DNA from: Thomasclavelia saccharogumia DSM 17460
Lineage (GTDB): Bacteria > Bacillota_I > Bacilli_A > Erysipelotrichales > Coprobacillaceae
Assembly: GCF_000686665.1 (NCBI RefSeq)
Contig: NZ_JMLH01000015.1
Location: 1 to 37,063, forward strand
Length of the DNA stretch: 37,063 nucleotides
Reading direction: 5' to 3'
Position numbers and translations under genes: made by a program
The notes under the pieces: generated by a model
Told to the model about the DNA's origin: nothing
What the model saw: the letters and a program-made list of their open reading frames with translations, nothing else
Database searches by the model: none
Shown here: positions 2,991-36,811 of the stretch, piece by piece
How the letters are laid out: every line of letters starts with the position of its first letter
How positions within the stretch are numbered: the first letter of the stretch is position 1

Positions 2991-3034
2991 AAAATAGACA
3001 AAAGTTAAAATAACTTTTGTCTATTTTGTTTATT
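2991..3034 (+). terminator. Terminator after recO
   Basis: A perfect 17-bp inverted repeat (left arm 2991-3007, right arm 3011-3027) with a three-base loop is followed by a T-rich stretch. The stem is AT-rich, and because A runs also precede it the structure could work in both directions. It closes the ybeY-recO transcription unit. Confidence 0.85.
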
Positions 3035-3084: not shown

Positions 3085-4923
3085 GTGAGTGAATTTTTAC
3101 CAGTAAATCGTCAAGAAATGGAAGCAAGAGGCTGGAAGCAGCCTGATTTTGTATATATATGTGGAGATGGATATGTTGATCATCCATCATTTGGGGCGGC
3201 TATTATTTGTCGAACTTTAGAAAGTCATGGGTTTAAGGTTTGTTTTTTGGCTCAGCCTGATTGGCACAACGTTGAAGAGTTTCGCCAGTTTGGTAAACCG
3301 CGACTAGGATTTTTAATATCATCAGGAAATATTGATTCAATGGTTAATCACTATACTGTTGCTAAAAAACGTCGTCATAAAGATTTATATACACCGGGCA
3401 GTGAAGGATTTAAACGCCCTGATCGAGCAGTGATCGTTTATAGTCAGATGGCGCGTCAAGCTTATAAAGATGCTAATATTATAATCGGCGGTATTGAAGC
3501 CAGCTTAAGACGTTTGGGACATTATGATTACTGGGATGATAAAGTTCGTAAATCAATTATTATCGATGCTAATGCTGATCTACTATTATACGGGATGGGT
3601 GAAAATAGCATTATTGAAGTGGCTGAAGCTTTAGATAGTGGCTTAGAAATCAAATATTTAACTTATTTGGATGGAACAGTATTTAAAACTAAAAATCTTG
3701 AAGATGCTCATGAGCCAATCATATTGCCAAGTTATGAAGAAATCTGTAAAGATAAAATGACTTATGCAAAGTCATTTCAGATTCAGTATTTAAATACGGA
3801 TCATTATAGTGCTAAAACATTAGTAGAACCATATCAGGGCTGGTATGTAGTGCAAAATAGACCTAATCGCCCACTAACGCAACGAGAATTTGATCGTGCT
3901 TATTCGTTGGATTATAATCGAACGGGACATCCTGATTATAAACATATTCCAGCTATTGATGAGGTTAAATTTTCATTAATAAGTAACCGTGGCTGTTTTG
4001 GCTCTTGTAATTTTTGTGCTCTAGCTTTTCATCAGGGACGAATCGTGCAAACTCGTTCACATGAGTCAATACTTGCTGAAGCAAGTAAAATGGTTTGGGA
4101 TCCAGAGTTTAAAGGATATATTCATGACGTAGGTGGACCGACTGCTAATTTTAGACAGCCATCATGTAAGAAGCAAAATAAGTTTGGAGCCTGTCCGACA
4201 AAACAGTGTTTATGGCCCAAACCTTGTAATAACTTAGAAGTAAGTCATCAGGATTATAAAGAATTATTAAATAAGTTGAAGATGCTGCCTAATGTAAAAA
4301 AGGTTTTTGTTCGTTCTGGAATTCGTTATGATTATTTAATGTATGATAAAGATGATAGTTTTTTTCGAGAATTAGTTCAAAATCATATTAGTGGTCAGCT
4401 AAAAGTAGCTCCTGAACATATTAGTGATCAGGTTTTAGATAAAATGGGTAAACCGCGTCGCGGTCTATATGAAAAATTTGTTGATAAATATTATCGTTTA
4501 AATGAGGAGTATCATAAAAAACAATTTTTAGTACCGTATTTAATGTCATCACATCCTGGCTGTACTTTAGAAGATGCTATTGAGTTAGCGGAATATTTAC
4601 GAGATATTCATCATCAGCCAGAACAAGTTCAGGATTTTTATCCAACCCCAGGAACTCTTTCAACAACGATGTATTATACTGGTTTAGATCCTCGTGATAT
4701 GTCAAAAGTATATGTACCTAAATCTGCTAAAGAAAAAGCAATGCAAAGAGCATTGATTCAATATCGAAATCCTAAAAATTATGATCTAGTATATGAAGCT
4801 TTGATCAAAGCAGATCGTCGTGATTTAATTGGCTTTGGTAAAAAATGTTTAATTAGACCTAGAAAAAATAATCAACAAAATTATCCCTCAAAAAATAACA
4901 GTTATCAAAAACGGAGGAGATAA
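3085..4923 (+). CDS. YgiQ-family (UPF0313) radical SAM protein
   Basis: A 612-aa member of the YgiQ/UPF0313 family, conserved radical SAM proteins whose substrate has not been established. The 4Fe-4S cluster motif CxxxCxxC is at Cys304, Cys308 and Cys311 (within GCFGSCNFCALAFHQGR). The N-terminal part (residues 20-170) contains the family-typical conserved block with YICGDGYVDHPSFG and IIIGGIEASLRRLGHYDYW. A Cys-rich segment follows the cluster (around residues 362-383). The start is GTG, chosen because it lies just after an AGAGGG ribosome binding site and matches the family N-terminus. The gene ends in a basic, Asn-rich tail. It starts a separate two-gene unit with the downstream hydrolase (two bases apart), between recO and glyQS. 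Confidence 0.93.
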   Translation: MSEFLPVNRQEMEARGWKQPDFVYICGDGYVDHPSFGAAIICRTLESHGFKVCFLAQPDWHNVEEFRQFGKPRLGFLISSGNIDSMVNHYTVAKKRRHKDLYTPGSEGFKRPDRAVIVYSQMARQAYKDANIIIGGIEASLRRLGHYDYWDDKVRKSIIIDANADLLLYGMGENSIIEVAEALDSGLEIKYLTYLDGTVFKTKNLEDAHEPIILPSYEEICKDKMTYAKSFQIQYLNTDHYSAKTLVEPYQGWYVVQNRPNRPLTQREFDRAYSLDYNRTGHPDYKHIPAIDEVKFSLISNRGCFGSCNFCALAFHQGRIVQTRSHESILAEASKMVWDPEFKGYIHDVGGPTANFRQPSCKKQNKFGACPTKQCLWPKPCNNLEVSHQDYKELLNKLKMLPNVKKVFVRSGIRYDYLMYDKDDSFFRELVQNHISGQLKVAPEHISDQVLDKMGKPRRGLYEKFVDKYYRLNEEYHKKQFLVPYLMSSHPGCTLEDAIELAEYLRDIHHQPEQVQDFYPTPGTLSTTMYYTGLDPRDMSKVYVPKSAKEKAMQRALIQYRNPKNYDLVYEALIKADRRDLIGFGKKCLIRPRKNNQQNYPSKNNSYQKRRR

Positions 4924-4925
4924 TT

Positions 4926-5819
4926 ATGAAACACAGTGAAACTTTTACATCAACGACTAAGACGCATGTGAATTTTGATATTTATCTTCCTACTGTAATG
5001 ATTCGTTATAAAGCAATAATTCAAATTCATCATGCGATGGGAGAGCACTTGGGACGTTATCAGCGTTTTGCTGAGTACTTAGCCCATGATGGTTTTGTTG
5101 TAGTGGTTAGTGATTTTCCTGGTCATGGGATGTCATTATACAATTATGAGCAGGGGTATTTTGGTTTTGGGGATGCAACTAAAAATTTAGTTGAAGATAT
5201 GCAGCGTCTTAGAAATATCATGGCTGCTAGATATCCTGATCTGCCATATTTTATGATTGGAAATGAATTAGGTTCAATTGTTTTACGTAAATATGTATCG
5301 ATTTATGGTGATTATGTTCAAGGCTGTATATTTATGGGAACTTGTGGAAAATTCAGTAACATAAATCTTAGTAAGTTATTATTGAAAGGTGACATATTAT
5401 TGAAAGGAAATATGCACCGTTCGAAAATAGTTAAGAAAAAAATTATTAAGACAGAACCATACATAAGCGCTGATGCAAATGAATTAGAACAGTATTTAGA
5501 GGACCCTTTTACTGGTTTTATTTATACTAATCAGGCTTATAATGATATTTTAAAGTTAATTAAAGAAGTAACTGCATATGAGACAATAAAAAAAATACCT
5601 AATTATTTGTCTGTTTTGATTGTTTCGGGATCAAAAGATGTTTTTGGTAAATTAGGAAAAGGACCTAAGTGGTTTTATGATACGCTTTTAAATAATGGTG
5701 TAAGAGATCTTTCAATCAAGTTATATGAGGATAGTTATCATGATATTTTACACGATCAGCAGCGTCGAGAAGTGTACAAGGATATTTTAGAGTGGTTTAA
5801 TGATCGAACGTATGTTTAG
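4926..5819 (+). CDS. Alpha/beta hydrolase, monoacylglycerol lipase-like (Hydrolase_4), with Glu at the nucleophile position
   Basis: The 297-aa protein has the layout of serine hydrolases of the monoacylglycerol lipase / lysophospholipase group: an oxyanion-region motif HHAMGEHLGRY (residues 35-45), the DFPGHGMS segment (63-70), a nucleophile elbow, an acid residue in SGSKD (Asp238) and a histidine in YHDIL (His272). The elbow, normally G-H-S-M-G-S, reads G-N-E-L-G-S at residues 112-117, so the catalytic serine is replaced by Glu114. The codon is an unambiguous GAA, and there is no frameshift. Either the protein has lost classical esterase activity or it uses a carboxylate nucleophile, as the Asp of epoxide hydrolases does. 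No signal peptide is seen, so it is likely cytoplasmic. It has a strong GGAGGAG ribosome binding site and is coupled to the YgiQ-like gene. Confidence 0.85.
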   Translation: MKHSETFTSTTKTHVNFDIYLPTVMIRYKAIIQIHHAMGEHLGRYQRFAEYLAHDGFVVVVSDFPGHGMSLYNYEQGYFGFGDATKNLVEDMQRLRNIMAARYPDLPYFMIGNELGSIVLRKYVSIYGDYVQGCIFMGTCGKFSNINLSKLLLKGDILLKGNMHRSKIVKKKIIKTEPYISADANELEQYLEDPFTGFIYTNQAYNDILKLIKEVTAYETIKKIPNYLSVLIVSGSKDVFGKLGKGPKWFYDTLLNNGVRDLSIKLYEDSYHDILHDQQRREVYKDILEWFNDRTYV

Positions 5820-5820
5820 A

Positions 5821-5863
5821 ACCCTTATAGTTGGTTGACAAAAAACCACTATAAGGGTATTTT
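5821..5863 (+). terminator. Terminator after the hydrolase gene
   Basis: Inverted repeat with left arm at 5821-5836 and right arm at 5844-5858 (ACCCTTATAG paired with CTATAAGGGT, extended by TGGTT/AACCA with a one-base bulge), followed by ATTTTAT. It separates the ygiQ-hydrolase pair from glyQS. Confidence 0.85.
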
Positions 5864-5972: not shown

Positions 5973-7346
5973 ATGGCAAATAAAGATATGGATAAATTAG
6001 TGAATCATGCTAAAACTTCAGGATTCGTTTATCAAGGATCGGAAATTTATGATGGTTTAGCAAATACTTGGGATTATGGACCTTTAGGAGTAGAGATGAA
6101 AAATAATATTAAACAGTTATGGTGGAAAAGATTCATTCAAGAATCACCATACAATGTTGGTTTAGATTCTGCAATATTCATGAATCCTAAAGTTTGGGAA
6201 GCAAGTGGACATGTTGGAGGATTTTCTGATCCATTGATCGATTGTAAAGAGTGTAAAACAAGACATCGAGCTGATAAATTAATTGAATCATTTGATCCCA
6301 CAGTTCACAGTGAAGGCTGGTCAAGTGAAGAAACAGTGAAATATATTAAAGATCATAAAATTGTTTGTCCTAACTGTGGAAAAAGTAATTTTACTGATGT
6401 TAGACAATTTAAATTGATGTTTGAAACAAGAATGGGGGTTGTTGAAGATGCTAAATCAACGGTATATCTACGTCCTGAAACAGCTCAAGGTATTTTTGTG
6501 AACTTTAAAAACATTCAAAGAACGACTCGTAAAAAAGTTCCTTTTGGAATTGGGCAAATTGGTAAAGCTTTTAGAAATGAAATTACACCAGGTAACTTTA
6601 TTTTTAGAATGCGTGAATTTGAGCAAATGGAATTAGAATTTTTCTGCAAACCAGATACTGATCTAGAATGGTTTGAATATTGGAAAAGTTATTGTAAACA
6701 ATTCTTAAAGGATCTAGGTTTAAAAGAAGAAAACTTACGTTTTAGAGATCATGATAAAGAAGAGTTATCTTTCTATTCTAAAGGTACTTGTGATGTTGAA
6801 TATAATTTCCCATTTGGCTGGGGAGAATTATGGGGCATTGCTGATCGTACTAATTATGATTTAACACAGCATCAAAATCATTCTAAAAAATCTTTAGAAT
6901 ATTTAGATCCAACTACTAACGAAAAATATATTCCTTATGTAATCGAACCTTCAGTTGGAGCGGATCGTTTATTCTTATCAGTGTTATGTGATAGTTATGA
7001 AGAAGAAACGTTAGAAGACGGTGAAACAAGAATCGTAATGAAGTTACATCCAGCTGTGGCTCCATATAAGGTAGCAGTTTTACCATTAACTAAAAAACAA
7101 AGTGATAAAGCTGTTGAAGTATATAGTATGTTGAGTAAACATTTCAGTTGTGAATATGATGTTGCTGGACAGATTGGTAAACGTTATCGTCGTCAAGATG
7201 CGATCGGGACACCATATTGTGTAACTGTTGATTTCGATACGATGGAAGATAATAGTGTTACGGTACGTGATCGTGATACGATGGAACAAATTCGTTTATC
7301 AATTGATGAATTAGTGGATTATATTAGTAAAAAAGTTATATTCTAA
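5973..7346 (+). CDS. glyS: Glycyl-tRNA synthetase, alpha2 (single-chain) type
   Basis: A class II aminoacyl-tRNA synthetase that charges tRNA-Gly in the cytoplasm. At 457 aa it is the homodimeric type (called GlyQS or GlyS), not the two-gene alpha2-beta2 form found in B. subtilis. Visible class II signatures are the [12 protein letters not shown] segment near the N-terminus, motif 2 within [21 protein letters not shown] (about residues 203-222) and motif 3 in [13 protein letters not shown] (about 327-339). A Cys pair CKEC followed further on by CPNC suggests a zinc site in the insertion. The C-terminal anticodon-binding domain starts around residue 360. It is followed after 15 bases by dnaG. 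Confidence 0.96.
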
Positions 7347-12015: not shown

Positions 12016-13986
12016 TTAAAAACCAAATAATTGAATAAATTTTTGCCATAAAGATTTAGATTCAGCTTGCTTTTTTTCTTTAACATCTTTTTCTTTTTTT
12101 TCAATAGCTGCGGTTTTGATAACAAATTGAACATTATTAACATTTGTATTTTTTTCTGAAACAAAAGATGTATTTTTTGTTTTTTCTCCTTGTATAGAAG
12201 AAAGTATTTCATTTATTTGATCTGCTATTTGAGTATCCATTTTTGAAGTCTTAGAACTTAATTCATTTGTACCATTATTTAATTCTTTTGTACCCTCACA
12301 ATAAGCTGTAATGCCAGCATATAATTCAGATGAACCAGATGCAAGACTATTTGAACCATTTAGTAATTCTTTACTACCAGAAGCTAAAGAAGAAACGCCT
12401 TTTATCATTTGATTATATCCAAAAACAATAGTGGCTACGCCATTAGTATAATTATTTATTCCTTTATCAAATTCTTGATAATTGACAACAAGTTGATTAA
12501 TTCCTGATGCTAATTTTGACATTTTTGTAATCATATTGCTAAGTGTATTTGTCAATTCAGATATTGCAGTATCGAATTTATCATATTCATTTTCAAGTGA
12601 TGTTACACCTGTATATAAATCATCGACCCCTTTGGAAACAGTGTCTAAATAATTTTTTGTACCATTTATTGCGGCATTATTTGCATTTAATAATTGGATC
12701 ATATTTTCTAAACTTGTGACTTGTTCTTTTAATTGGGCTATTTGATTTTCAAAACCGCTTTGATTTTCTAAAGCAGTAATTGTTTGTTTTAATGATTCTA
12801 CCTGGTTTGTACAATCTGTGATTGTCTGCTGATTGCTGCTTTTTAATGAATCTATATCTAATCCATTTTGTGATATCGTTGTTTTATACTGAGAATATCC
12901 CAAATTGTTTTTTAAAGCTGTAATGCCATCAGATAAGCTGTTAATACCACTTTTTATTTTACTAGAAGCTGAAGTTAGTTCTTGAAGCTGATCTGTTGAA
13001 AAGGAAATAACATTTAAACTTGTTTGAATGGTTTCAAGGGTGCTTTTTATTTGTGAGGAACTTTTTGTTAAAGTCGATGATTGATTGTTTAAAGTGTCAA
13101 GTCCCATCTGCATAGATTTCATGCTGTCTTGAAGTACTGTAATTCCAGAATCTAATTCACTTGCGCCGTTTTGTAAAGAATAAACTCCATTATTCAAAGA
13201 ATCACTACCGTTTTTTAAATTTTTTGTTCCATCATAAAGTTGAGTCGCACCATTATTTAATGTTTCTGTAGCATTCATTAATTCTGTAACTTTTTCCATT
13301 AATGCATCATCATCAATTTCAATATTTAAGTTTAGCTTTATACCATTTATTGATACAGGATCCATTTCAAAGTTTTTAACATCGGTATAAATAGATGTTT
13401 CTAACCCTTTTTGGGGAAGAATTGTATATAATAGCTGTTTATCAGCACCAACATTAGCTATTGTTGCTCCATTAGCGTTTATATTGCTGCAAAGATTAGT
13501 ATCTAGTAAAAATGTTGCTTGTAAAGCATAATCATTAAAATATGAATCATTACATTTTTCGTTTTTGGTAATTGAGATTCTTATTTCTAGAGCACCGCTT
13601 TTACCAGCAATTTCTTTGGCAGTGTATTCTTTGTTATCTAGAAAATATTTAATAGATATGTTCCATGGAATTTCTTTATTTTTTAATGTACCTTGATAGT
13701 ATACTTTTTTGGCTGAAGATGAAAAAGTAATTTTATTTCCTTTTTGATTAATTTTATCTGTAGTATTTAACATTTTAACTGATGAATAATCACCATAATC
13801 ACTAATATTACCACCATCAAAAATATTAACCACGTTAATATTGTTTACGGTCCCATCAGCATCACTCATAATATACACTATTTCTTCTTTGGAAGAATCA
13901 TTTTCAGCAGCAAATACCGGAATTGTAATATTTGTTGCCATTAAAATTGCAAGAAATATAATAGTAACTTTTTTATACATTTTCAT
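12016..13986 (-). CDS. Secreted LxxG-repeat (YhgE/Pip-like) coiled-coil protein, partner of the MMPL protein
   Basis: About 656 aa with a clear signal peptide (basic MKMYKK, hydrophobic stretch, likely cleavage after VFA). The N-terminal 220 residues form a beta-rich domain I do not recognise by name. From about residue 235 come runs of 7-residue units of the form L-x-x-G-x-x-x, such as LNNGATQLYDGTKNLKNG, again near the C-terminus, with coiled-coil-like stretches between. Such repeats are known from YhgE/Pip-type and MMPL-associated proteins. The C-terminus is Lys-rich and ends in a short aromatic segment rather than a clear TM helix. ATG 13986 is preferred over the upstream 14004 start because GGAGG lies nine bases before it. 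It overlaps the MMPL gene by 14 bases, implying coupled expression and a joint envelope function. Exact role unknown. Confidence 0.75.
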   Translation of the reverse strand: MKMYKKVTIIFLAILMATNITIPVFAAENDSSKEEIVYIMSDADGTVNNINVVNIFDGGNISDYGDYSSVKMLNTTDKINQKGNKITFSSSAKKVYYQGTLKNKEIPWNISIKYFLDNKEYTAKEIAGKSGALEIRISITKNEKCNDSYFNDYALQATFLLDTNLCSNINANGATIANVGADKQLLYTILPQKGLETSIYTDVKNFEMDPVSINGIKLNLNIEIDDDALMEKVTELMNATETLNNGATQLYDGTKNLKNGSDSLNNGVYSLQNGASELDSGITVLQDSMKSMQMGLDTLNNQSSTLTKSSSQIKSTLETIQTSLNVISFSTDQLQELTSASSKIKSGINSLSDGITALKNNLGYSQYKTTISQNGLDIDSLKSSNQQTITDCTNQVESLKQTITALENQSGFENQIAQLKEQVTSLENMIQLLNANNAAINGTKNYLDTVSKGVDDLYTGVTSLENEYDKFDTAISELTNTLSNMITKMSKLASGINQLVVNYQEFDKGINNYTNGVATIVFGYNQMIKGVSSLASGSKELLNGSNSLASGSSELYAGITAYCEGTKELNNGTNELSSKTSKMDTQIADQINEILSSIQGEKTKNTSFVSEKNTNVNNVQFVIKTAAIEKKEKDVKEKKQAESKSLWQKFIQLFGF

Positions 13987-16033
13987 TTTGTAATACCTCC
14001 TCATGTTTTTTTATAACTAATCCATCAAAAATATATAGTAAAGCTGGCAGAATAAAAAGCACAATGATAAGAGAACAAAGTGTTCCTTTTCCAAGAAAGA
14101 ATCCTAATTGTGAAAGTAGTCCGTGAGTGGAAATGTTTCCCAATAAAAATCCTACGATCGTAAGGACTCCGCCCGAAGTTAAAATTGAAACGGTAACAGA
14201 AGAAATTGTACTAATTATTGCTTGCTTTTTATTGTTAGTAATTCTTTTTTCTTTATATCTATCTGAAAATAATATTGCATAATCTACTGTTGCACCTAGT
14301 TGAATAGAACTGATGATTAAGTAAGCAATATAGAAAATTGTACTATTTGTAAAATAAGGAATAGATAAATTTATCCAAATTGCTGTTTCAATAGCCAATA
14401 CTAAAATAATTGGTAAAATAATAGATTTTGTTGTTAATAAAAGTACTAAAAATACAGCTCCAATAGCTAATAGATTTACTTTTGTCATATCAGAAGTAAC
14501 TGTATCCATTAAATCATAGGTAGAAACCCCTTCACCTGCAAGATACCAGTCTTTTTCATAATATTTTTTAGTAATATCACGAATATTTTCAACTAATTTA
14601 AAAGTCTCCTCACCTTCATAATCTGTTTCAACAGATATTACCATTCGAGTATAATTATCCGAGTTCAATTTCGAAAGTGTTTCTGAATCAAGATATGATT
14701 CTGGTATTTCAACACCAACAGTATCAACATAAGACATTATATTTGTTACTTGAGGCAAATTTTTTAATTCGTTGGATAAATCTTTTTGTGTCGCAGTACT
14801 TTCTTTAGGAACTAATAAGACATATGTGTCATTTTCGCCAAATATAGAATCTATTTTTTTGATGTCTAAACCTAATTTAGTCTCAGGACCAAAGATGTGT
14901 GATGAACCATAATAAAAATCATTTGCATTAGAAGCTAGATAGCAGGGAACGATTAAAATAACAAAGACACATAGTAATGGAAACATTGTTTGAAAAACAA
15001 CTTTTCCAAAACCATTAAAGGATGGCATAAAAGAACGATGGGTTGTTTTATCAATCCATTTATATGTGTAAAGAATAAATACTGGCATAAATGTAAATAC
15101 TGTAATTAAACTTATTAAAATACCTTTGGCTAATGCTAAGCCTAGATCTGGACCTATTTGAAATCTCATTAAGCAAAGTGCTAAAAATCCAATTACTGTT
15201 GTAAGGCCACTAGAAAGAATAGATGTTGTTGATATACAGAGGGCATTTACCATGGCATTTTTTACATTTTTTTCTTTTTTACGACATTCTTCAAAACGAT
15301 GAATCAAAAATACGGAGTAGTCTAAGGAAACTGCTAATTGCAGAATACTTCCGGCAGCATTTGTAACAAATGAAATTTCACCAAAGATAAGATTACTGCC
15401 TGCATTAATGATAACAGCAACACCTAATCCTAATAACACGATAAATGGTTCGGCCCAGGAAGTTGTTGTTAAAATGAGAATCAACAGTACAAGAATAATA
15501 GCAATAACAGCAATTTTTCCAATTTCGCTAACAGTACTTGTTGTCGCTGCAGCAGTTGAAACAGCACTTCCCATCATAGAATTTTCATCACCAATGATTT
15601 CTTGGATGTCTTCAACTGCCTGAATGTTTTTATCTTCTTCAATAGTGATGGAAAGTAAGGCATTATTATCTTTATAATAAGTTTCAATAGTTTTTGAATC
15701 TATTGTTTCTAATGGCTCTGTAATATCAATGACATCATCAAGCCATGTAACATCGCTAACACCATCTACTGATTTAATAGTGTTTTTGTAATTTAAGGCT
15801 TCTGGAATTGAAACATTTTCCAACATAACACGAGCATTAGGAATTCCGCCATCATATTCTTTTTCCATAATGTCAATTGCAGTAGTGGAAGAACTATCTG
15901 GGGGAAGATAATCATTCATATCATAATTTACGGTAATAAATTGTCGTGAAATTAAGCAAATAATAAACAGAATTGAAAATATTATTAAAATTATTTTGGG
16001 ATGATTAATAATTTGATCATAAATTTTTTTCAT
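13973..16033 (-). CDS. MMPL/RND-family membrane transporter
   Basis: About 686 aa with the two-fold RND layout: a first TM helix at residues 12-35, a large extracellular loop, a TM bundle, a second large loop and a second bundle. The matching TM4-type motifs of each half are LDYSVFLIHRFEE and VDYAILFSDRYKE, each with the Asp-Tyr typical of proton-driven MMPL/HAE-like exporters. The family exports lipids, siderophores or drugs; the substrate here is unknown. ATG 16033 is chosen because GAGG sits nine bases upstream; the open frame continues to 16087 but that extension has no ribosome binding site and delays the first TM helix. It is co-transcribed with the LxxG-repeat gene and divergent from the TetR-type regulator, which probably controls the pair. 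Confidence 0.9.
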   Translation of the reverse strand: MKKIYDQIINHPKIILIIFSILFIICLISRQFITVNYDMNDYLPPDSSSTTAIDIMEKEYDGGIPNARVMLENVSIPEALNYKNTIKSVDGVSDVTWLDDVIDITEPLETIDSKTIETYYKDNNALLSITIEEDKNIQAVEDIQEIIGDENSMMGSAVSTAAATTSTVSEIGKIAVIAIILVLLILILTTTSWAEPFIVLLGLGVAVIINAGSNLIFGEISFVTNAAGSILQLAVSLDYSVFLIHRFEECRKKEKNVKNAMVNALCISTTSILSSGLTTVIGFLALCLMRFQIGPDLGLALAKGILISLITVFTFMPVFILYTYKWIDKTTHRSFMPSFNGFGKVVFQTMFPLLCVFVILIVPCYLASNANDFYYGSSHIFGPETKLGLDIKKIDSIFGENDTYVLLVPKESTATQKDLSNELKNLPQVTNIMSYVDTVGVEIPESYLDSETLSKLNSDNYTRMVISVETDYEGEETFKLVENIRDITKKYYEKDWYLAGEGVSTYDLMDTVTSDMTKVNLLAIGAVFLVLLLTTKSIILPIILVLAIETAIWINLSIPYFTNSTIFYIAYLIISSIQLGATVDYAILFSDRYKEKRITNNKKQAIISTISSVTVSILTSGGVLTIVGFLLGNISTHGLLSQLGFFLGKGTLCSLIIVLFILPALLYIFDGLVIKKHEEVLQNENV

Positions 16034-16171
16034 TATGTCTATCCTCATTTCATTATTGATATATTCCATAAAAAATAGTATTTGCAAATTTTTTTGTAAA
16101 AAAATATTTTTATATGCAAATGGACTTTTTTATGTAAAATAAATATATTAAAATAAGATTCTAAAAACAAT

Positions 16172-16230
16172 GGACAAATATCTTGTTAGTGGGTAAATAA
16201 GGACAAATCATATTGATTTGATGGGCAAAT
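16172..16230. promoter_or_regulatory. Repeat-rich intergenic control region with candidate TetR operator
   Basis: In the 228-base divergent spacer, CAAATCA-TAT-TGATTTG (16204-16220) is a perfect 7+7 inverted repeat. Around it the octamer GGACAAAT and close variants occur four times in one orientation: 16172, 16191 (GGGTAAAT), 16201 and 16223 (GGGCAAAT). This fits a binding site for the divergent TetR-type regulator controlling itself and the MMPL operon. No classical promoter was assigned with confidence. Confidence 0.5.
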
Positions 16231-16261
16231 TCTAAGTGAAAATATAGGAGGTTGATTTCTA

Positions 16262-16840
16262 ATGACACATGATGAAATATCATTACAAACCAAGCAAAAA
16301 CTAGCGACATCATTAAAAAAGTTTATGATGTTAAAAAGTCTAAATAAAATAACAGTTACAGATATTATCAGAGATTGTAATGTTAATAGAAAAACATTTT
16401 ATTATCACTTTGAAGATATTTATGATTTATTAAAATGGATTTTAGAGCAGGAAGCTGTTGAAGTAGTCAAAAAGTTTGATTTAATGGTTGATTATAAAGA
16501 AGCAATTATTTTTGTGATGAGCTATATTGAAAATAATGCACATATTTTAGCTTGTGCATATGATTCTTTAGGTAGAGAAGAAATGCGTCGATTTTTATAT
16601 CATGATTTTACTAGTATTGTTGAAACGCTCATTGATAACGTAGAAAAAGAATTGGGTCTTTGTGTAAAAAAAGAGTTTAAATATTTTGTATGTAATCTTT
16701 ATACGGAGTCGTTAGCTGGAATTTTAATAGAATGGTTTAAAAATCCGCAAAATCGATGTAAAGAACAAGTCGTAGAATATTTATCGATTATTTTTTGCTC
16801 ATCTTTACCAGAAATCATGAAAAATGCCCCTAAAGATTAG
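16262..16840 (+). CDS. TetR/AcrR-family transcriptional regulator
   Basis: A 192-aa one-component repressor-type protein. The N-terminal helix-turn-helix is clear: ITVTDIIRDCNVNRKTFYYH (about residues 32-51) followed by FEDIYDLLKWIL, the usual TetR recognition helix and helix 4. The C-terminal ligand domain resembles the group of TetR proteins that includes dihydroxyacetone-kinase regulator DhaS-like members; the ligand is not predictable. It has a strong AGGAGG site. Its position divergent from the MMPL-LxxG operon, with palindromic and repeated sites in the shared spacer, suggests it controls that operon in response to an envelope-active or hydrophobic compound. Confidence 0.9.
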   Translation: MTHDEISLQTKQKLATSLKKFMMLKSLNKITVTDIIRDCNVNRKTFYYHFEDIYDLLKWILEQEAVEVVKKFDLMVDYKEAIIFVMSYIENNAHILACAYDSLGREEMRRFLYHDFTSIVETLIDNVEKELGLCVKKEFKYFVCNLYTESLAGILIEWFKNPQNRCKEQVVEYLSIIFCSSLPEIMKNAPKD

Positions 16841-17123: not shown

Positions 17124-17192
17124 GTTTAATAGCGATATTATGTTAAATTATGCTGATTTATAGCGGGTAAATTGTTGAGGGAGGATTTTAAT

Positions 17193-20100
17193 ATGAAAAT
17201 GAGAAGAAAGATTGTAGCGTTATTATTAGTTTTAGCGATGATAGTGATGGTTTTGCCAACGCCAATTTTAAATGTAAAAGGAGCTGACAATATAATTAAC
17301 CTTAATGAGTTAGCGCCATTTAAAGGAAGAACAAAGCAGGAAGTAGCAGCAAAATATCAAAATGTTAAAATTGATGAATACTATGATTATGGAACTAATG
17401 AGGATTATTATAAAGAAAAACCATCATTAGTGGCACCATATGCTGGTGGAGAATTAAAAGAAGAAGTCCATCAGGCAATGAGCAATATGGTAAATTATTA
17501 TCGCTGGTTAGCTGGTGTTGATAAATATGAACAAAGATCTGTTCATAATGACAGGTTACAAGCCGGGGCAGTAATTCAAAATTTATATTGTAAGGCTGAA
17601 GGTAAGTTAACGCATAACTTAGCTACTGACTGGTCAAAGCCTGATAATATGGATCAATATTTTTGGAATATAGGTGCATATGCTAATCATAATATTATAG
17701 CCTATAATTATACTCCACAAGGAGCTATCGAGGGTTGGTTTAATGAAGGATATAATATCGAAAATAAATCTTTTGATACGATAGGACACCGCAAAGCCCT
17801 TTTGTCATATACAACTACAGGTGCTGATTTTGGATATGCTGGTGATATTGCATATGGATTAATAAAATCTCAAGGAACTACTGATTTGCCTTGCGTTGCC
17901 TATCCTGCTCCAGGTGCTTATCCAAGTAATAATATTGATCCTAAGGTTACAGCATGGTCAGTTGAGTTAAATCTTGATAAATTAAGTTATAATTCTTTGA
18001 ACGATGTAACTATTCGTGTCACTAATTTAACGGCAAATAAATCATATGATTGTACTAAAGCAAATAATAAATTAATTGAATCAGATGATCAAGAAGGACA
18101 ATTAGTGTTTGTTCAGCCAACTATTTCTACAAGTAACTATGAAGATTCTTATAAAGTAGAAATTTTAGGATTGAAGGATGATAGTGGTAATACAAGTGTA
18201 GTTGAGTATCAAATTGATTTCTTCGATATAGACACTTTAGTTCCTTCTACTGTTGATCATGTTAGTACAGATTGTTTAAATGTATACATGGGAGTAACCG
18301 CAAATAATCCTTCTTTTACAACAATAGAATCAATTTTACCAAAACAAGTAACTATAACTACTGATACAGATCGAACAGAAGTAATTGATGTTGAATGGCA
18401 ATATAATGAAGAGACAAATGAATTTATGGTTAAACCAGAATCTTATATGTTCCCGGATTTAATAAACGATAATAATCATGTCTTAGAAAATTTTGCAATA
18501 AAATATGAAACCCAAAATACCGTAGATAAAAGTCGTACTCTTAATTATGCTGTAAATGAAAATGGAACTGTTAGCATTGAAGCAGATCCATATTGGTCAG
18601 ATGCTGATGTATTTTACTGGTATAAAATTTTAGATAATGGAACAGTATCATTACTTGATCAAACATCAAAAGTGTTAACTATTGAAAATGCTAGCATGGA
18701 TGATGCAGGACAATATTTTGCAGTATATAAATGTAGTTATGCTGCAAATTCAAATATATATGTAACGCCTATTAAAACATTAAATGTAATATCATCAAAA
18801 ACACTTGCAGGTATAGAAATAACACCACCTGCAAAAACTCAATATTTTGTAGGAGAAAATCTGGTTTTAGATGGCTTGAATGTAAAAGCAATCTATAATG
18901 ATAATAGTAATAAAGAAATTGATATTTCCCAGGTTCAAATTAGTGGTTTTGATACAACCATTCCTGGTAAAAAGACAATCACGGTTACTTATCAAAATAA
19001 AACAGCAACATTTGAAATCGATGTAGTTGAAAAAGAAGTAACTAGTATTAAAGTTACACCACCTGCAAAAGGGCAATATCTTGAAGGTCAGGAATTAGAT
19101 TTAACAGGTGGAAAGATAACAGTTTTCTATAGTGATGGCAGCAGTGAAATAATAGATTTAACAAATGAAGGAATTGAAATTACTGGTTATGATAAAAATA
19201 AAATTGGTAGCCAGCAAGTTACAGTTATATATAAAAATGTACCAGCTGCTTTTACAGTTAATGTAAAAGCTAAAGAAATTACAGATATCAGCATGAGCAG
19301 TTTACCGGATAAAGTGCAATATGTTAAGGGGCAAGATCTAGAATTAGCTGGTGGAAAAATATTAGTAAGATATAATAATGGAACGAGTGAAGAGATAGAT
19401 TTAACTAATTCACAAGTTATAGTAACGGGTTATCAAAAAAATAAAATTGGTAATCAGAATTTAATAGTGCGTTATGGCGGAAAGAGAACGTCAATGACGA
19501 TTGAAGTAGTTGAAAAAGTTGTTACAAGCATTTTTGTAACAGCACCAACTAAAGTTCAATATATCGAGGGTCAAGAAATAGATTTAACAGGTGCAATGAT
19601 AACAGCAACCTATAACGATGGCAGTATTCAAGAGGGAATAGCTGTTACTGCAGATATGATAAGTGGTTATGATAGTACGGTTTTTGGTAATCAAACGATT
19701 ACAGTAACTTATCAAAATCAAATATCAATATTTAATGTGAATGTTAAAGCTAAATCGGTAGTTGGAATTGAAATGTTTAATAATCCAGCTAGATTAGAAT
19801 ATATTGAAGGACAAGAGTTAGATTTAACAGATGGAAAAATAAAAGTAAATTATGATAATGGTTCATATGATGAAGTAACAATTAAATTACCAATGATAAG
19901 CGGTTATGAAAGTGATAAATTAGGAAATCAAAATATTACAGTTTCTTATGGTGAGTTTACTACTCAATTTACAGTTAATGTAATTGAAAAAGTTGTTACG
20001 AAATTAGAATTGATTTCTTTACCTAATAAATTGAGTTATATAATAGGTCAAGAATTGAATGTCGAAGGAGCAATATTGCAGGCAGAATATAATGATGGTG

Positions 20101-22265
20101 AAGTTAAAAATAATATTGTTGTAACTAATGATATGTGCAGTGGCTTTGATAGTTCAAGTTTAGGAACTAAAACAGTTAATGTTAAGTATGAAGAAGGGTC
20201 AATTGCATTTAATGTTAATGTTGAAGAAAAGAAACTGGTAGATTTGAAAATAACAGCACCAAATAAAACTACTTATATTGAAGGACAGGAAATTGATTTA
20301 TCAGGATTAAAAGTACAAGCAGTTTATAATGATGATAGTGAAGTTTTACTTGATTTAAACAATGTTGTGATTACAGGATATGATGCTAATAAAATTGGTA
20401 AACAATTGATTACAGTTATGTATGGAACTTTAAATAAAAGTTTTGAAGTTGAAGTGATAAATAAAACAGCAGAAAAAATTGAAATAACTTCACCGTTAAA
20501 ATTAGAATATGTAAAAGGGCAAGAATTAAATCTTGATGGAATGACAATTACAGTAACATATAACAATGGTGAAAAAGCTAATCTAAATATTGCTGATGTT
20601 GGAATTGTTGGTTATGATAAAAATAAGACTGGTAAGCAAATCGTTAGTGTCATTTATCAGGATAAAATTGCTGTGTTTGAAGTAAATGTGATTGAAAAAG
20701 TGGTTACAGAAATTTCTATAAGTACTCCTGCAAAAACTGAGTACATTCAAGGACAAAAACTTGATTTAACAGGAGTAACGATCATCGCTAAATATAATGA
20801 TGGAACAAGTAATCCAATTAGTGTTGAAAATGAAATGGTTAGTGGATATGATGCTAATAAGGTTGGAAAACAAACAGTTGTAATTACTTTTGAAGGAAAG
20901 ACAGCAACATTTGAAGTTGAAGTGTTAGCTAAAGAAATAACTAAGATGGAAATAACAGCACCATCAAAATTGGAATATGTTGAAGGTCAGGAACTAGATT
21001 TAACTGGGGCATCAATACTTTTGACATATAATGATAGTAGTTCGAAAACTATTTCAATTACTAAGGATATGATCAGTGATTATGATAGTAGCAAGATTGG
21101 TAAACAAGTTGTTAATGTAACATATCAAAATCAATCTGCAATATTTGAAGTAAATGTAATAAAAAAAGCAATTACTAATATTGAAATGAATTCTTTACCA
21201 AATAAAGTTAATTATATTGTCAATCAAACATTTGATATTACTGGGGCAACACTTAAAGTAACTTATAATAATGATGAAACAGAAATTATTACTGTAACTA
21301 ATGAAATGGTTACGATTCCTGCTTTATCATCATTAGGAAGTAAAACAGTTAAAGTTGTTTATGATGGCTTTGAAACAAGTTTTAATATTATCATTAGAAA
21401 TAAGGCATTAACAGCAATTGAAATCTTTAAAGCACCTGATAGAGTAGAATATATTGAAGGTCAGCAATTGGATATAACAGGTGGTAAATTATCGTTGATC
21501 TATGATGATAATTCTAAAGAAATAATTGATTTAGATTCTACGATGTGTAATGTTGATATGAATCAAATTAGTGAAAAAGTTGATGTTGAAGTATCATATA
21601 ATGAATTAAAAACATCTTATTCAATTAAAATTGATGCTAAGACTGTTACTGCAATGAAATGGATCGAAGAACCAGATATTTTACAATTTAAAGAAGGGAA
21701 ACCATTTATATTTAGTGGTAAATTAGAATTAACATATAATAATGGTAGTGTAGAAATTACTAATGCTAATAGTGATAATTTTATCATTAAAGGATATGAC
21801 AACAGTAAAGTTGGTCAGCAAGTGATTGATATTGTCTATAAAGGAACTAATGTTTCAGTTGATCAAACAGTTGAAATATTACCTAAAACATCTATAGGTA
21901 TAGTGATCCAAACATTACCAACTAAAACTGTTTATGAAATGGGTGAAGAATTTAAAATCGATGGTTTAGCAGCTGCAATCATTTATGATAATGATACAGT
22001 AGAAATAATTCCATTAGAAAAATTAATTATTTCTAAACCAGATATGAATAAAGCTGGAAAACAAAAGATCAATCTTTCAGATGGAAAATATAAAACATCA
22101 TTTGAGATTGAAATCATCAAAAGAGAAGCAGCTCAAAATGATACTCATGTAGCTGTAAATACAAGTGATGATACGTCAATTGCAATCCATAGTGGTACTT
22201 TAGCACTAACATTATTGACAGCTGTAATTTCTTTAATAAAAAAGAAAAAAGTAACAGCATCATAA
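17193..22265 (+). CDS. Giant cell-surface protein: signal peptide, CAP domain, Ig-like domain, 14 Big_3 repeats, C-terminal membrane anchor
   Basis: A 1690-aa exported protein. Residues 1-32 are a signal peptide. A CAP/SCP-PR1 domain (about 85-235) shows LTHNL and the GHRKALL motif. A linker and an Ig-like domain with the DDAGQY signature (about 450-535) follow. Then come 14 repeats of about 79 aa (537-1645) of the bacterial Ig-like group 3 type, with the pattern YxxGQxLDLTG...Y-N-D-G...GYD..KxGxQ-xVxVxY. The C-terminus has a hydrophobic helix and a KKKK tail; the preceding VNTSDDTS looks like a degenerate version of the TGD-type sorting motif, with no LPxTG. ATG 17193 is chosen because GGGAGG lies eight bases before it. 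CAP proteins have varied roles (adhesion, lipid binding, peptidase); adhesion or wall interaction is the best inference. It has its own promoter. Confidence 0.88.
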   Translation: MKMRRKIVALLLVLAMIVMVLPTPILNVKGADNIINLNELAPFKGRTKQEVAAKYQNVKIDEYYDYGTNEDYYKEKPSLVAPYAGGELKEEVHQAMSNMVNYYRWLAGVDKYEQRSVHNDRLQAGAVIQNLYCKAEGKLTHNLATDWSKPDNMDQYFWNIGAYANHNIIAYNYTPQGAIEGWFNEGYNIENKSFDTIGHRKALLSYTTTGADFGYAGDIAYGLIKSQGTTDLPCVAYPAPGAYPSNNIDPKVTAWSVELNLDKLSYNSLNDVTIRVTNLTANKSYDCTKANNKLIESDDQEGQLVFVQPTISTSNYEDSYKVEILGLKDDSGNTSVVEYQIDFFDIDTLVPSTVDHVSTDCLNVYMGVTANNPSFTTIESILPKQVTITTDTDRTEVIDVEWQYNEETNEFMVKPESYMFPDLINDNNHVLENFAIKYETQNTVDKSRTLNYAVNENGTVSIEADPYWSDADVFYWYKILDNGTVSLLDQTSKVLTIENASMDDAGQYFAVYKCSYAANSNIYVTPIKTLNVISSKTLAGIEITPPAKTQYFVGENLVLDGLNVKAIYNDNSNKEIDISQVQISGFDTTIPGKKTITVTYQNKTATFEIDVVEKEVTSIKVTPPAKGQYLEGQELDLTGGKITVFYSDGSSEIIDLTNEGIEITGYDKNKIGSQQVTVIYKNVPAAFTVNVKAKEITDISMSSLPDKVQYVKGQDLELAGGKILVRYNNGTSEEIDLTNSQVIVTGYQKNKIGNQNLIVRYGGKRTSMTIEVVEKVVTSIFVTAPTKVQYIEGQEIDLTGAMITATYNDGSIQEGIAVTADMISGYDSTVFGNQTITVTYQNQISIFNVNVKAKSVVGIEMFNNPARLEYIEGQELDLTDGKIKVNYDNGSYDEVTIKLPMISGYESDKLGNQNITVSYGEFTTQFTVNVIEKVVTKLELISLPNKLSYIIGQELNVEGAILQAEYNDGEVKNNIVVTNDMCSGFDSSSLGTKTVNVKYEEGSIAFNVNVEEKKLVDLKITAPNKTTYIEGQEIDLSGLKVQAVYNDDSEVLLDLNNVVITGYDANKIGKQLITVMYGTLNKSFEVEVINKTAEKIEITSPLKLEYVKGQELNLDGMTITVTYNNGEKANLNIADVGIVGYDKNKTGKQIVSVIYQDKIAVFEVNVIEKVVTEISISTPAKTEYIQGQKLDLTGVTIIAKYNDGTSNPISVENEMVSGYDANKVGKQTVVITFEGKTATFEVEVLAKEITKMEITAPSKLEYVEGQELDLTGASILLTYNDSSSKTISITKDMISDYDSSKIGKQVVNVTYQNQSAIFEVNVIKKAITNIEMNSLPNKVNYIVNQTFDITGATLKVTYNNDETEIITVTNEMVTIPALSSLGSKTVKVVYDGFETSFNIIIRNKALTAIEIFKAPDRVEYIEGQQLDITGGKLSLIYDDNSKEIIDLDSTMCNVDMNQISEKVDVEVSYNELKTSYSIKIDAKTVTAMKWIEEPDILQFKEGKPFIFSGKLELTYNNGSVEITNANSDNFIIKGYDNSKVGQQVIDIVYKGTNVSVDQTVEILPKTSIGIVIQTLPTKTVYEMGEEFKIDGLAAAIIYDNDTVEIIPLEKLIISKPDMNKAGKQKINLSDGKYKTSFEIEIIKREAAQNDTHVAVNTSDDTSIAIHSGTLALTLLTAVISLIKKKKVTAS
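18801..22127 (+). repeat. Fourteen tandem Big_3-type coding repeats
   Basis: Fourteen consecutive units of about 237 bases each encode Ig-like group 3 domains. Repeats 1-10 share a near-constant core (variants of GAAGGTCAGGAATTAGATTT at e.g. 19083, 19566, 19806, 20984), whereas units 11-14 are progressively diverged and lose the GYD and GQ positions. This suggests expansion by duplication in the middle of the array, with older units at the membrane-proximal end. Confidence 0.85.
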
Positions 22266-27653: not shown

Positions 27654-27685
27654 AAAGGAAACAGATTTATTTTTCTGTTTCCTTT
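27654..27685 (-). terminator. Terminator at the end of the minus-strand Rpn gene
   Basis: AAAGGAAACAGA (27654-27665) pairs with TCTGTTTCCTTT (27674-27685). On the minus strand the stem runs into a T-rich tract. The stop codon of the gene is inside the loop. Confidence 0.8.
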
Positions 27686-28596
27686 ATCTCATCTATTCTT
27701 TGTTTGAACCTTTCATACTCATCCTCTTCAAAGATTATTTTATCAATCACTTTTAATTGTTTAGTATTTAGCGATAATACCCATTCTTCTTCTCTTATTC
27801 CATATCTTGCTTCAATAAAATCAATAGTTATTTTTAATGCACCTTCAGTTCTTCCCTTAGCCAATCCCTTTTCATATATTTCCTGCTTTTCGGATTCATT
27901 TGCTGCCCTGTTTAAATTTCGCTTATAATACATATCTCTTAATAGTTCGTCTTCATTAAACATTTCTAATTTTTTTTTCATGATCTTTACCACTCCTTGG
28001 TTCGTTAAACCAATTATATCACTATCTATCCCGTTTTTAAATATATACAAAGCCAGTTCTATTTCACTCATTTTTTTTAAACTTTTCTGTTTCCTGATTA
28101 TATTGATATATGGCAGCTGGACATAACTCCTGGTAATGAGATTATACTTTTCTATTATTCCATCTTCATTAGTACTTCTATATGTATCAATCAATTTTAG
28201 ATTATCTTTATCAATATCATCAATAAAGATAATCTGATATACAGAATGCATGGTTTCAATATAACTCCTGCTTTTTTCTTTTTGTGCTGCTAGTAAAGCT
28301 GCACCATACTGCCAGAAACGATAGTAATGACTTTTAGAAAAGGTAGAATTCTGCATTTCGATATCAATAATATCACCATCAGTTGTTTTTACCTTAACAT
28401 CAAGGATCATATCTTTATCAGATATATGTTTCGGGTTAAGATCAGGATTAAGGACAGAGATTTGATCACATTTAATATTGAGGATATTTTCAATAAAGAG
28501 TTTTAACATAAAGATACAGTCAGGATCTAAATCATCGTGCAGTAAATATTTGAATAAGATATCATTTTTAAAATCATTGTAAAATTCTTTTGTCAT
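27667..28596 (-). CDS. Rpn-family PD-(D/E)XK nuclease / putative transposase
   Basis: A 309-aa protein of the recombination-promoting nuclease (Rpn, PDDEXK_2) family. The catalytic core is visible as Asp66 in ILDVKVK and Glu80-Met-Gln82 in IIDIEMQ, the typical D...ExQ arrangement, followed by YRFWQYGAALLA and a YQIIFIDD strand. The C-terminal part has a short basic Gly-containing segment (EKGLAKGRTEGALK) and ends in an acidic helix. It belongs to a different Rpn subfamily from the copies at the window edges, with which it shares the fold but little else. A GGAGGT site precedes the start. It is inserted between the yqfT-like gene and ispG, beside a decayed regulator gene, so this spot appears to be an insertion-prone site. 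Confidence 0.9.
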   Translation of the reverse strand: MTKEFYNDFKNDILFKYLLHDDLDPDCIFMLKLFIENILNIKCDQISVLNPDLNPKHISDKDMILDVKVKTTDGDIIDIEMQNSTFSKSHYYRFWQYGAALLAAQKEKSRSYIETMHSVYQIIFIDDIDKDNLKLIDTYRSTNEDGIIEKYNLITRSYVQLPYINIIRKQKSLKKMSEIELALYIFKNGIDSDIIGLTNQGVVKIMKKKLEMFNEDELLRDMYYKRNLNRAANESEKQEIYEKGLAKGRTEGALKITIDFIEARYGIREEEWVLSLNTKQLKVIDKIIFEEDEYERFKQRIDEIKETEK

Positions 28597-35807: not shown

Positions 35808-35903
35808 TTGTAAAAGATAATGAGGAGGAAAAAAATATGATTCATGAAAAAACTGTTATCCAAAATAATGTCAGCTTTAGTAATGACCTGTTCTTTAAAT
35901 ATC
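35808..35903 (+). repeat. Direct repeat, copy A: Rpn gene ribosome binding site and start
   Basis: This segment is almost identical to 36969-37063 (one A fewer in the second copy's A run near the ribosome binding site). Identity begins about 29 bases before the start codon and continues to the right window edge, marking a duplicated gene start. Confidence 0.9.
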
Positions 35904-36811
35904 TGCTCTCTAGAGATACTTTTGAATCCAAAAAAATAAGAAAGTTTATCGTTAAATCTGTCACTGGCCTTGACTGTCAGCAGATGATCGTTAAAAATCC
36001 CGAAATCAATCAAAATACGGTCCTCGCTAAAAACATCATCCTCGATATCTGTGCGATTGATGAAAAAGGTCGAATCATCGATATCGAAATGCAGATGGCC
36101 GGCAGCAGTAATAGCGAAAGTACCCGCTTTCAGTTCTATGGTGCCAGACTGTTAGTAGAACAGATCGATACTGGTGAAAAATATCATCAGTTAAGACCGG
36201 TATATCAAATCATCTTTATCAATGAAGATGATGATCGTCTGATCAAAGAATATGCGTTTCGAGATGACCAGGGAGAGGTAGAAAAAAGTAATCTTAATTA
36301 CCGCTATTTTATCAAGATGAGACATATCGATAAGCTCATCAAGGAAAAGGGAATTGCAGGATTGAATGATTTAGAAAGATTATGTTATTTGTTTATAAAA
36401 AATGAATATCCTGCTATAATGAAAGAAAGAGAAGAAGATATCGTGGAGATGGTGATAAAGATGTATGACAAGTTTAGAAGTAATGAGCCGATATGGTCAT
36501 TAGCAAACCAGTTAGCCTTAGCGAAGCTTAGAACCGAATCCTTAGAGATGGAACGTGAAGAAAAGACGGCTAAAAGAATCGAAGAAGGAATCAAACAAGG
36601 TATTGAAATTGGACGAGAAGAAGGGGTTGAAATAGGAAAAAAAGAAACTCTTAGACAAACATGTATTAAATTGATTAAAAAGCAGTATCATCAAGACTGT
36701 CAGGAATGGGTAGAGAGCTTAAGTGAAAAGCAATTAGAAGAAATAATTGAATTGATTTTTAAAGAAGAAGATTTTAAAGTTTTTAAGCAAAAAATAGATA
36801 TGATCAAGTGA
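35837..36811 (+). CDS. Rpn-family PD-(D/E)XK nuclease / putative transposase (complete)
   Basis: The 324-aa protein is a complete member of the Rpn family. Catalytic residues are visible as Asp70 (NIILDICAID) and Glu84-Met-Gln86 (IIDIEMQ). A helical region with RFQFYGARLLVEQ and the YQIIFINEDDD strand follow. The C-terminal part has EGIKQGIEIGREEGVEIGKKE repeats and an acidic end. The 5' half has a visibly higher GC content and more C-ending codons than the neighbours, suggesting horizontal transfer. It has a GAGGAGG site. Its middle is nearly identical to the gene fragment at the left edge, and its start to the copy beginning at 36997. Rpn proteins promote DNA transfer or recombination; a role of this one is not shown. 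Confidence 0.92.
   Translation: MIHEKTVIQNNVSFSNDLFFKYLLSRDTFESKKIRKFIVKSVTGLDCQQMIVKNPEINQNTVLAKNIILDICAIDEKGRIIDIEMQMAGSSNSESTRFQFYGARLLVEQIDTGEKYHQLRPVYQIIFINEDDDRLIKEYAFRDDQGEVEKSNLNYRYFIKMRHIDKLIKEKGIAGLNDLERLCYLFIKNEYPAIMKEREEDIVEMVIKMYDKFRSNEPIWSLANQLALAKLRTESLEMEREEKTAKRIEEGIKQGIEIGREEGVEIGKKETLRQTCIKLIKKQYHQDCQEWVESLSEKQLEEIIELIFKEEDFKVFKQKIDMIK

Follow-up and report, generated by a model that had tools for sequence, protein, structure and literature searches.

A syntenic clade of alpha/beta hydrolase-like proteins lacking the nucleophile serine, encoded upstream of glyS in one bacterial family

Gene, fold and surroundings of the altered elbow

What does an alpha/beta hydrolase do when its nucleophile is gone? 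The question is raised by an ORF of 297 aa (4926–5819, plus strand) in the window, i.e., the whole analyzed stretch of 37,063 nucleotides from Thomasclavelia saccharogumia DSM 17460. A first-pass annotation of this DNA had reported a glutamate in place of the catalytic serine and had offered two interpretations, a pseudo-enzyme repurposed for binding or regulation and an enzyme with a carboxylate as nucleophile. The substitution itself was confirmed. The ORF is intact, and its nucleophile elbow GNELGS (codons at 5259–5276, plus strand) comprises Gly112-Asn113-Glu114-Leu115-Gly116-Ser117, with a GAA codon for Glu114 at 5265–5267, where serine hydrolases of the monoacylglycerol-lipase (MGL)-like type have the serine of GxSxG. 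From the sequence comparisons below, we consider the protein to be probably a vertically inherited, non-hydrolytic pseudo-hydrolase of the MGL-like alpha/beta hydrolase branch.

The assignment of the gene is based on the ORF call, Pfam, phmmer, and a structural model. Pfam placed the protein in Hydrolase_4 (PF12146; E = 3.9e-31, 108.6 bits versus a gathering cut-off of 27), and the best solved relative was the carboxylesterase 5o7g from Bacillus coagulans (phmmer E = 4.5e-30, residues 13–292). The alignment to 5o7g runs without gaps through the elbow and sets Glu114 opposite the serine of GHSMGS, Asp238 (5637–5639, plus strand) opposite the acid, and His272 (5739–5741, plus strand) opposite the histidine; together with the Hydrolase_4 match, it bears out the acid and base positions and the monoacylglycerol-lipase layout that had been read from the sequence. 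An AlphaFold2 model computed from seven rows (mean pLDDT 71.8, pTM 0.75, with low confidence in the lid, residues 141–200) has a strand at residues 108–113 and a helix at 115–130, and residue 114 therefore forms the elbow turn. A fold search with this model returned 5o7g as the top match (Z 26.2, 242 residues, 2.6 A), and the best matches were MGL-type esterases. Both the predicted model and the fold matches thus show an alpha/beta hydrolase fold in which strand 5 leads through the elbow into the following helix. The retained pocket residues are His36, Glu40, Tyr45, the GHGxSL...EQGYFG loop, and Asp238; the codons of His36-Ala37 in the oxyanion loop (HHAMGEH), located from the aligned rows, lie at 5031–5036 (plus strand).

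Immediately upstream, a YgiQ-family radical SAM protein is encoded on the same strand (3085–4923; TIGR03904, 856.9 bits versus a cut-off of 462.35), and the hydrolase-like ORF starts 3 bases past its stop. The strong ribosome binding site noted before can be read directly from the sequence as GGAGGAG at 4913–4919 (plus strand), within the 3' end of the ygiQ gene. A terminator-like hairpin, a consensus match only, precedes ygiQ (2991–3027, plus strand), and a hairpin with a U-rich tail follows the hydrolase-like gene as a likely terminator (5821–5858, plus strand; −20.5 kcal/mol, z −4.4). As hairpins flank the pair on both sides, it is reasonable to read ygiQ and the hydrolase-like gene as a two-gene unit. 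The next ORF (5973–7346, plus strand), which also entered our neighborhood survey of syntenic loci, we take to be glycyl-tRNA synthetase GlyS by recognition of its sequence rather than by a family scan; no Rfam match to a T-box or another known RNA was found near glyS within the window.

Elsewhere in the window, the ORFs at both ends (9–431 and 35837–36811) have in common a nearly identical segment that includes variable GIE-type repeats, and these end repeats may, we infer, be the reason why the contig stops there. PDDEXK_2 matches were obtained for the ORFs 35837–36811 and 27667–28596. A 1697-aa protein (17172–22265) carries 11 Big_3 Ig-like repeats and, toward its N-terminus, a weak sub-threshold match to a CAP domain. 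The region 12016–16840 comprises a pair of large-protein ORFs that overlap on the minus strand, of which the one with 704 aa appears by eye to be of RND type, and, adjoining them, a TetR-like regulator ORF (16262–16840, by eye).

Distribution, elbow residues and selection

An orthologue upstream of glyS-dnaG was found in 39 of 43 genomes of the family to which the window belongs (Coprobacillaceae). The 38 intact copies span 17 of its 20 genera, with genera defined by the group codes of the search tool, and 8 of 9 Thomasclavelia genomes are among the carriers; Thomasclavelia cocleata DSM 1551 has an 81% identical copy. The remaining copy (G031, L054:2641–3565) is broken into two overlapping frames separated by a stop, owing either to recent pseudogenization or to misassembly. 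Two further good genomes of the family lack the gene at the locus, which then reads recO-ygiQ-glyS (G014) or recO-glyS (G026). The gene is not indispensable, since it is absent at the locus in these two genomes and split in G031. Two other genomes are uninformative on absence, G005 with glyS at a contig end and G016, which is 69% complete and yielded no glyS. Six genomes inspected from the other family of the order had no such gene upstream of glyS. By profile score, the syntenic group reached at least 365 bits (two partial matches: 258 and 286) versus at most 252 elsewhere in the order, and no match at the syntenic level turned up beyond the family in 395 genomes sampled evenly across the class. 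Four relatives from another family of the class scored 239–243 bits and have the elbow GHSMGS. Viral contigs yielded no homologue from the syntenic clade; serine-bearing homologues were present at three viral loci. Downstream, glyS is the nearest recognized gene in 37 of the 38 syntenic loci. In G038, glyS and the hydrolase-like gene are separated by an ORF of 620 aa (L053:4294–6153), the sole such interruption among the 38; by eye, its product is a secreted protein with a metallo-beta-lactamase fold.

We then compared the elbow residue across these loci. The 38 syntenic rows contain Asp (16), Gly (10), Glu (7), Gln (4), and Asn (1). An intact GxSxG in close homologues had been named beforehand as an observation that would undo the first interpretation, and none of the 38 has serine. 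Among 49 unlinked homologues, a chosen sample of the hits, serine is present in 48 and Gly in one. Sequencing error or an isolated mutation was rejected for the window copy, as GNELGS also occurs in independent records from related genomes (L021, L022, and L023 with 98%, 87%, and 81% identity to the window protein). Glu114 itself is not conserved across the clade, as the check proposed with the first-pass annotation revealed (7 of 38), nor is it fixed in Thomasclavelia, where five of eight orthologues have Glu and three have Gln.

Trees were computed after removal of the columns for elbow, acid, and base; the split gene L054 and the duplicates L094–L096 were excluded from the alignment and the trees, and for a second tree the non-syntenic rows were reduced from 49 to 21 and joined by the four class-level rows. 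In the trees, the 38 syntenic rows form one side of a 100/99 branch, and over the entire tree the elbow letter changes 9 times (87 rows) or 8 times (63 rows). Because all 38 rows form one clade, a single loss of serine can be placed on its stem; most simply, serine would have been lost once at the clade base and again in a paralogue in G033. The elbow codons can be connected through single-base steps, whose order we infer. The letters used at the elbow are mostly those tolerated by the strained left-handed turn, which fits a structural rather than a nucleophilic role of residue 114. No Ser, Cys, or Thr near the site is newly conserved in the clade. Two serines elsewhere were considered as replacements and rejected: S70 shows similar conservation among the unlinked homologues, and S9 belongs to an N-terminal segment that for the most part does not align outside the clade.

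Purifying selection acts on the gene. Its dN/dS of 0.043–0.182 (12 pairs) is in the range of neighboring RecO (0.095–0.175 for the 8 of these pairs with RecO at both loci), with values of 0.009–0.077 (12 pairs) for GlyS and 0.016–0.066 (10 pairs) for YgiQ in the same set; the ratios are approximate, as dS is about 1 in several pairs. Columns of the oxyanion loop and of the GHGxSL...EQGYFG loop have low entropy; those of the lid have high entropy. Compared with the unlinked homologues, most parts of the clade proteins are less variable (GHG loop: 0.88 versus 1.67 bits; residues 46–62: 1.09 versus 2.05), and the elbow and base columns are more variable; since the unlinked set is broader than the clade, this reversal alone is informative.

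Readings of the site

Single loss of serine and purifying selection support the pseudo-enzyme interpretation well. The comparisons show a serine lost once at the base of the clade and an elbow that has drifted among Asp, Gly, Glu, Gln, and Asn; in the half-clade that includes the window protein, the catalytic histidine has often been lost as well, and selection keeps the protein as a whole. According to the pseudo-hydrolase reading, no acyl-enzyme would be possible without a nucleophile, and the protein would therefore work by binding. The retained pocket would most likely bind a partner protein or a small ligand of acyl or amphipathic character, and the role could be that of a sensor, carrier, or scaffold in a housekeeping process. 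In Thomasclavelia, the gene is translationally adjacent to ygiQ in the two-gene unit. Against this reading stands the invariance of Asp238 (38 of 38 rows) and, in the other half-clade, of His272 (22 of 22), neither of which is required of a simply dead site. Two further points count against it: the elbow of the 38 rows is never Ala, Cys, Thr, or a hydrophobic residue, and the gene is not indispensable (G014, G026, and G031). The invariant Asp238 and His272 would be compatible with a non-covalent activity.

The strongest competing explanations concern a pocket carboxylate, and they draw on residue 37. This position, which corresponds to the Gly of HG in the oxyanion loop, varies among Gly, Ala, and Asp within the clade. 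Asp37 occurs in 8 of the 38 rows, each time with a Gly elbow (D37/G114), and all 16 rows with an Asp elbow have Gly37 (G37/D114). In the other half-clade of 22 rows, 13 have the elbow Asp and 8 have Asp37 with a Gly elbow. The swap may mean that a pocket carboxylate moved between neighboring loops, or it may reflect the tolerance of a dead site. As histidine and acid are invariant in this half-clade and an Asp is found at 114 or 37, the carboxylate may matter there. The paralogue in G033 (contig 47, L126:2872–3804) is an unlinked Hydrolase_4 protein with the elbow GQGMG that lost its serine independently. It is the only unlinked homologue with a Gly elbow, also has Asp37, and thus repeats the combination on a separate branch; the 19 next-best relatives retrieved from the taxonomic order all have a serine elbow. 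The tally of residues 37 and 114 includes proteins fetched twice (L126 = L163). It is rather unlikely, in our estimate, that the carboxylate, present as D114/G37 or D37/G114, took on a new non-nucleophilic job as general acid/base or in binding a metal or a cationic ligand: the two independent events are the only ones, L126 is a long branch, Thomasclavelia combines Ala37 with Glu or Gln, and two of the 38 rows (G/G and A/G) have neither acid nor amide at either place. A wider version is doubtful too, namely that a carboxylate from the loop of residue 114 or 37 and the old His-Asp pair would form a new catalytic or sensing center that arose twice, in the Gly group of the clade and in the G033 paralogue, with the Glu/Gln forms of Thomasclavelia being degenerate or retuned. 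If true, such a center would put the alpha/beta hydrolase site to a non-serine, non-classical use.

The second explanation looks to the neighbor instead of the pocket and makes the protein a functional partner of YgiQ in a shared pathway. The pairing with a radical SAM protein, claimed before, is real in the window, with its hairpin-flanked unit, and ygiQ is the immediate upstream gene in 24 of the 38 syntenic loci (recO in 12, neither in 2). However, 13 of the 39 genomes carrying the gene have no YgiQ above the family cut-off, so the function cannot depend on YgiQ everywhere, and G014 keeps YgiQ at the locus without the hydrolase-like gene. An obligate partnership is thereby refuted, and we regard a functional one as unlikely.

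The third explanation is the carboxylate nucleophile, in which Glu114 or Asp would attack the substrate as in epoxide hydrolases and haloalkane dehalogenases, and the His272-Asp238 pair would activate water. The window protein has all three residues, and Asp114, His272, and Asp238 occur together in 13 of the 22 rows of the other half-clade. However, the variation of residues 114 and 272 is hard to reconcile with such a mechanism. His272 is kept in 26 of the 38 rows, i.e., in 22 of 22 rows of the other half-clade and in 4 of 16 of the half containing Thomasclavelia; of the 7 Glu rows, 4 lack it and 3 have it, and of the 16 Asp rows, 3 lack it. The eight Thomasclavelia orthologues combine Glu/His (3), Glu/Gln (2), Gln/His (1), Gln/Asn (1), and Gln/Gly (1) at the two positions, so that the Glu-His pair needed by a Glu nucleophile is not maintained; Gln replaces Glu114 in three of the eight, and Gln replaces His272 in two of the five with Glu. 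In the other half, Asp alternates with Gly and Asn. Classical epoxide hydrolase and haloalkane dehalogenase families have Trp after the elbow Asp and HGxP in the oxyanion loop; here, the elbow Asp is followed by L, F, M, or I, and HGxP is absent. For the window protein, the carboxylate nucleophile is thus unsupported, and we rate this reading as quite unlikely; for the Asp-bearing relatives of the other half-clade, in which histidine and acid are invariant, it retains a low probability. An actinobacterial cluster of alpha/beta hydrolases with Ser replaced by Asp is presented as candidate epoxide hydrolases in passages of one study (PMC11878206).

Other histidines, which might replace the lost His272, occur near the base position. 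His276 is present in all 16 rows of the half-clade with Thomasclavelia. Five of the eight Thomasclavelia orthologues (L085, L086, L087, L088, and L089) have a histidine at residue 271, immediately ahead of the usual base position; His271 could act as a shifted base, which is the sole observation softening the loss of the Glu-His pair.

A decaying gene or a sequencing error is extremely improbable: the gene is split in G031, but it is open and syntenic in 38 genomes from 17 genera with dN/dS of 0.04–0.18 (12 pairs), and the same non-serine elbow recurs in independent assemblies.

Significance and comparison with known systems

Most known nucleophile-less alpha/beta hydrolases are eukaryotic, with a few bacterial DUFs. 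The clade described here has a single origin, and selection has maintained it in 17 genera of a single bacterial family. It offers a natural elbow series (Asp, Gly, Glu, Gln, Asn), and many of its genomes also encode paralogues with the serine intact, which makes it a clean system for asking why a dead hydrolase pocket is retained. The labels lipase or serine aminopeptidase are probably wrong for proteins of this clade.

The closest known systems are the MGL-like Hydrolase_4 esterases and lipases (5o7g, human and mycobacterial monoglyceride lipase). The clade shares with them the fold, the length, the HxxxE oxyanion loop, GHGxS, and the acid; in contrast, the nucleophile serine is missing in 38 of 38 rows, the histidine is lost in 12 of 38, and the lid columns are highly variable.

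NDRG proteins resemble the clade in other respects. They have an Asp after the oxyanion-loop His, and the NDRG2 elbow GVGAG resembles that of the Gly-elbow relatives of the clade, a likeness that is not significant (E = 0.22). According to passages in one source, the eukaryotic NDRG family (Pfam Ndr, PF03096) shares the alpha/beta hydrolase fold with an altered triad, and in NDRG3 the triad is replaced by non-reactive residues (PMC7022630). The window protein had no match to PF03096 at E 0.001; of nine relatives, five had PF03096 listed at E up to 1, the best with 18.6 bits versus a cut-off of 23.3. As these Ndr scores lie under the cut-off, membership in NDRG was rejected and we speak of likeness only. 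Moreover, NDRG combines a Gly elbow with loss of acid and histidine, whereas the window protein has a Glu elbow and both Asp238 and His272. NDRG was not among the 50 fold matches listed, which has no bearing on kinship.

An elbow carboxylate, found in 23 of the 38 syntenic rows, is also a feature of the Asp-nucleophile families, i.e., epoxide hydrolases, haloalkane dehalogenases, and 'Cluster 64', the alpha/beta hydrolases with an elbow Asp described in parts of PMC11878206. Those families conserve the Asp, whereas the window protein has Glu and the clade is mixed (D16 G10 E7 Q4 N1). Passages of the same source read DUF3530 (PF12048) and DUF687 (PF05095) as bacterial triad-less alpha/beta hydrolases of a non-enzymatic kind (PMC11878206); the window protein matched neither at E 0.001, and both belong to other taxa and other neighborhoods. 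Our searches of the open-access literature found no description of this protein family. Triad-less alpha/beta hydrolases are an accepted kind, and what is new here is a family-wide clade with a fixed chromosomal place and a series of elbow residues.
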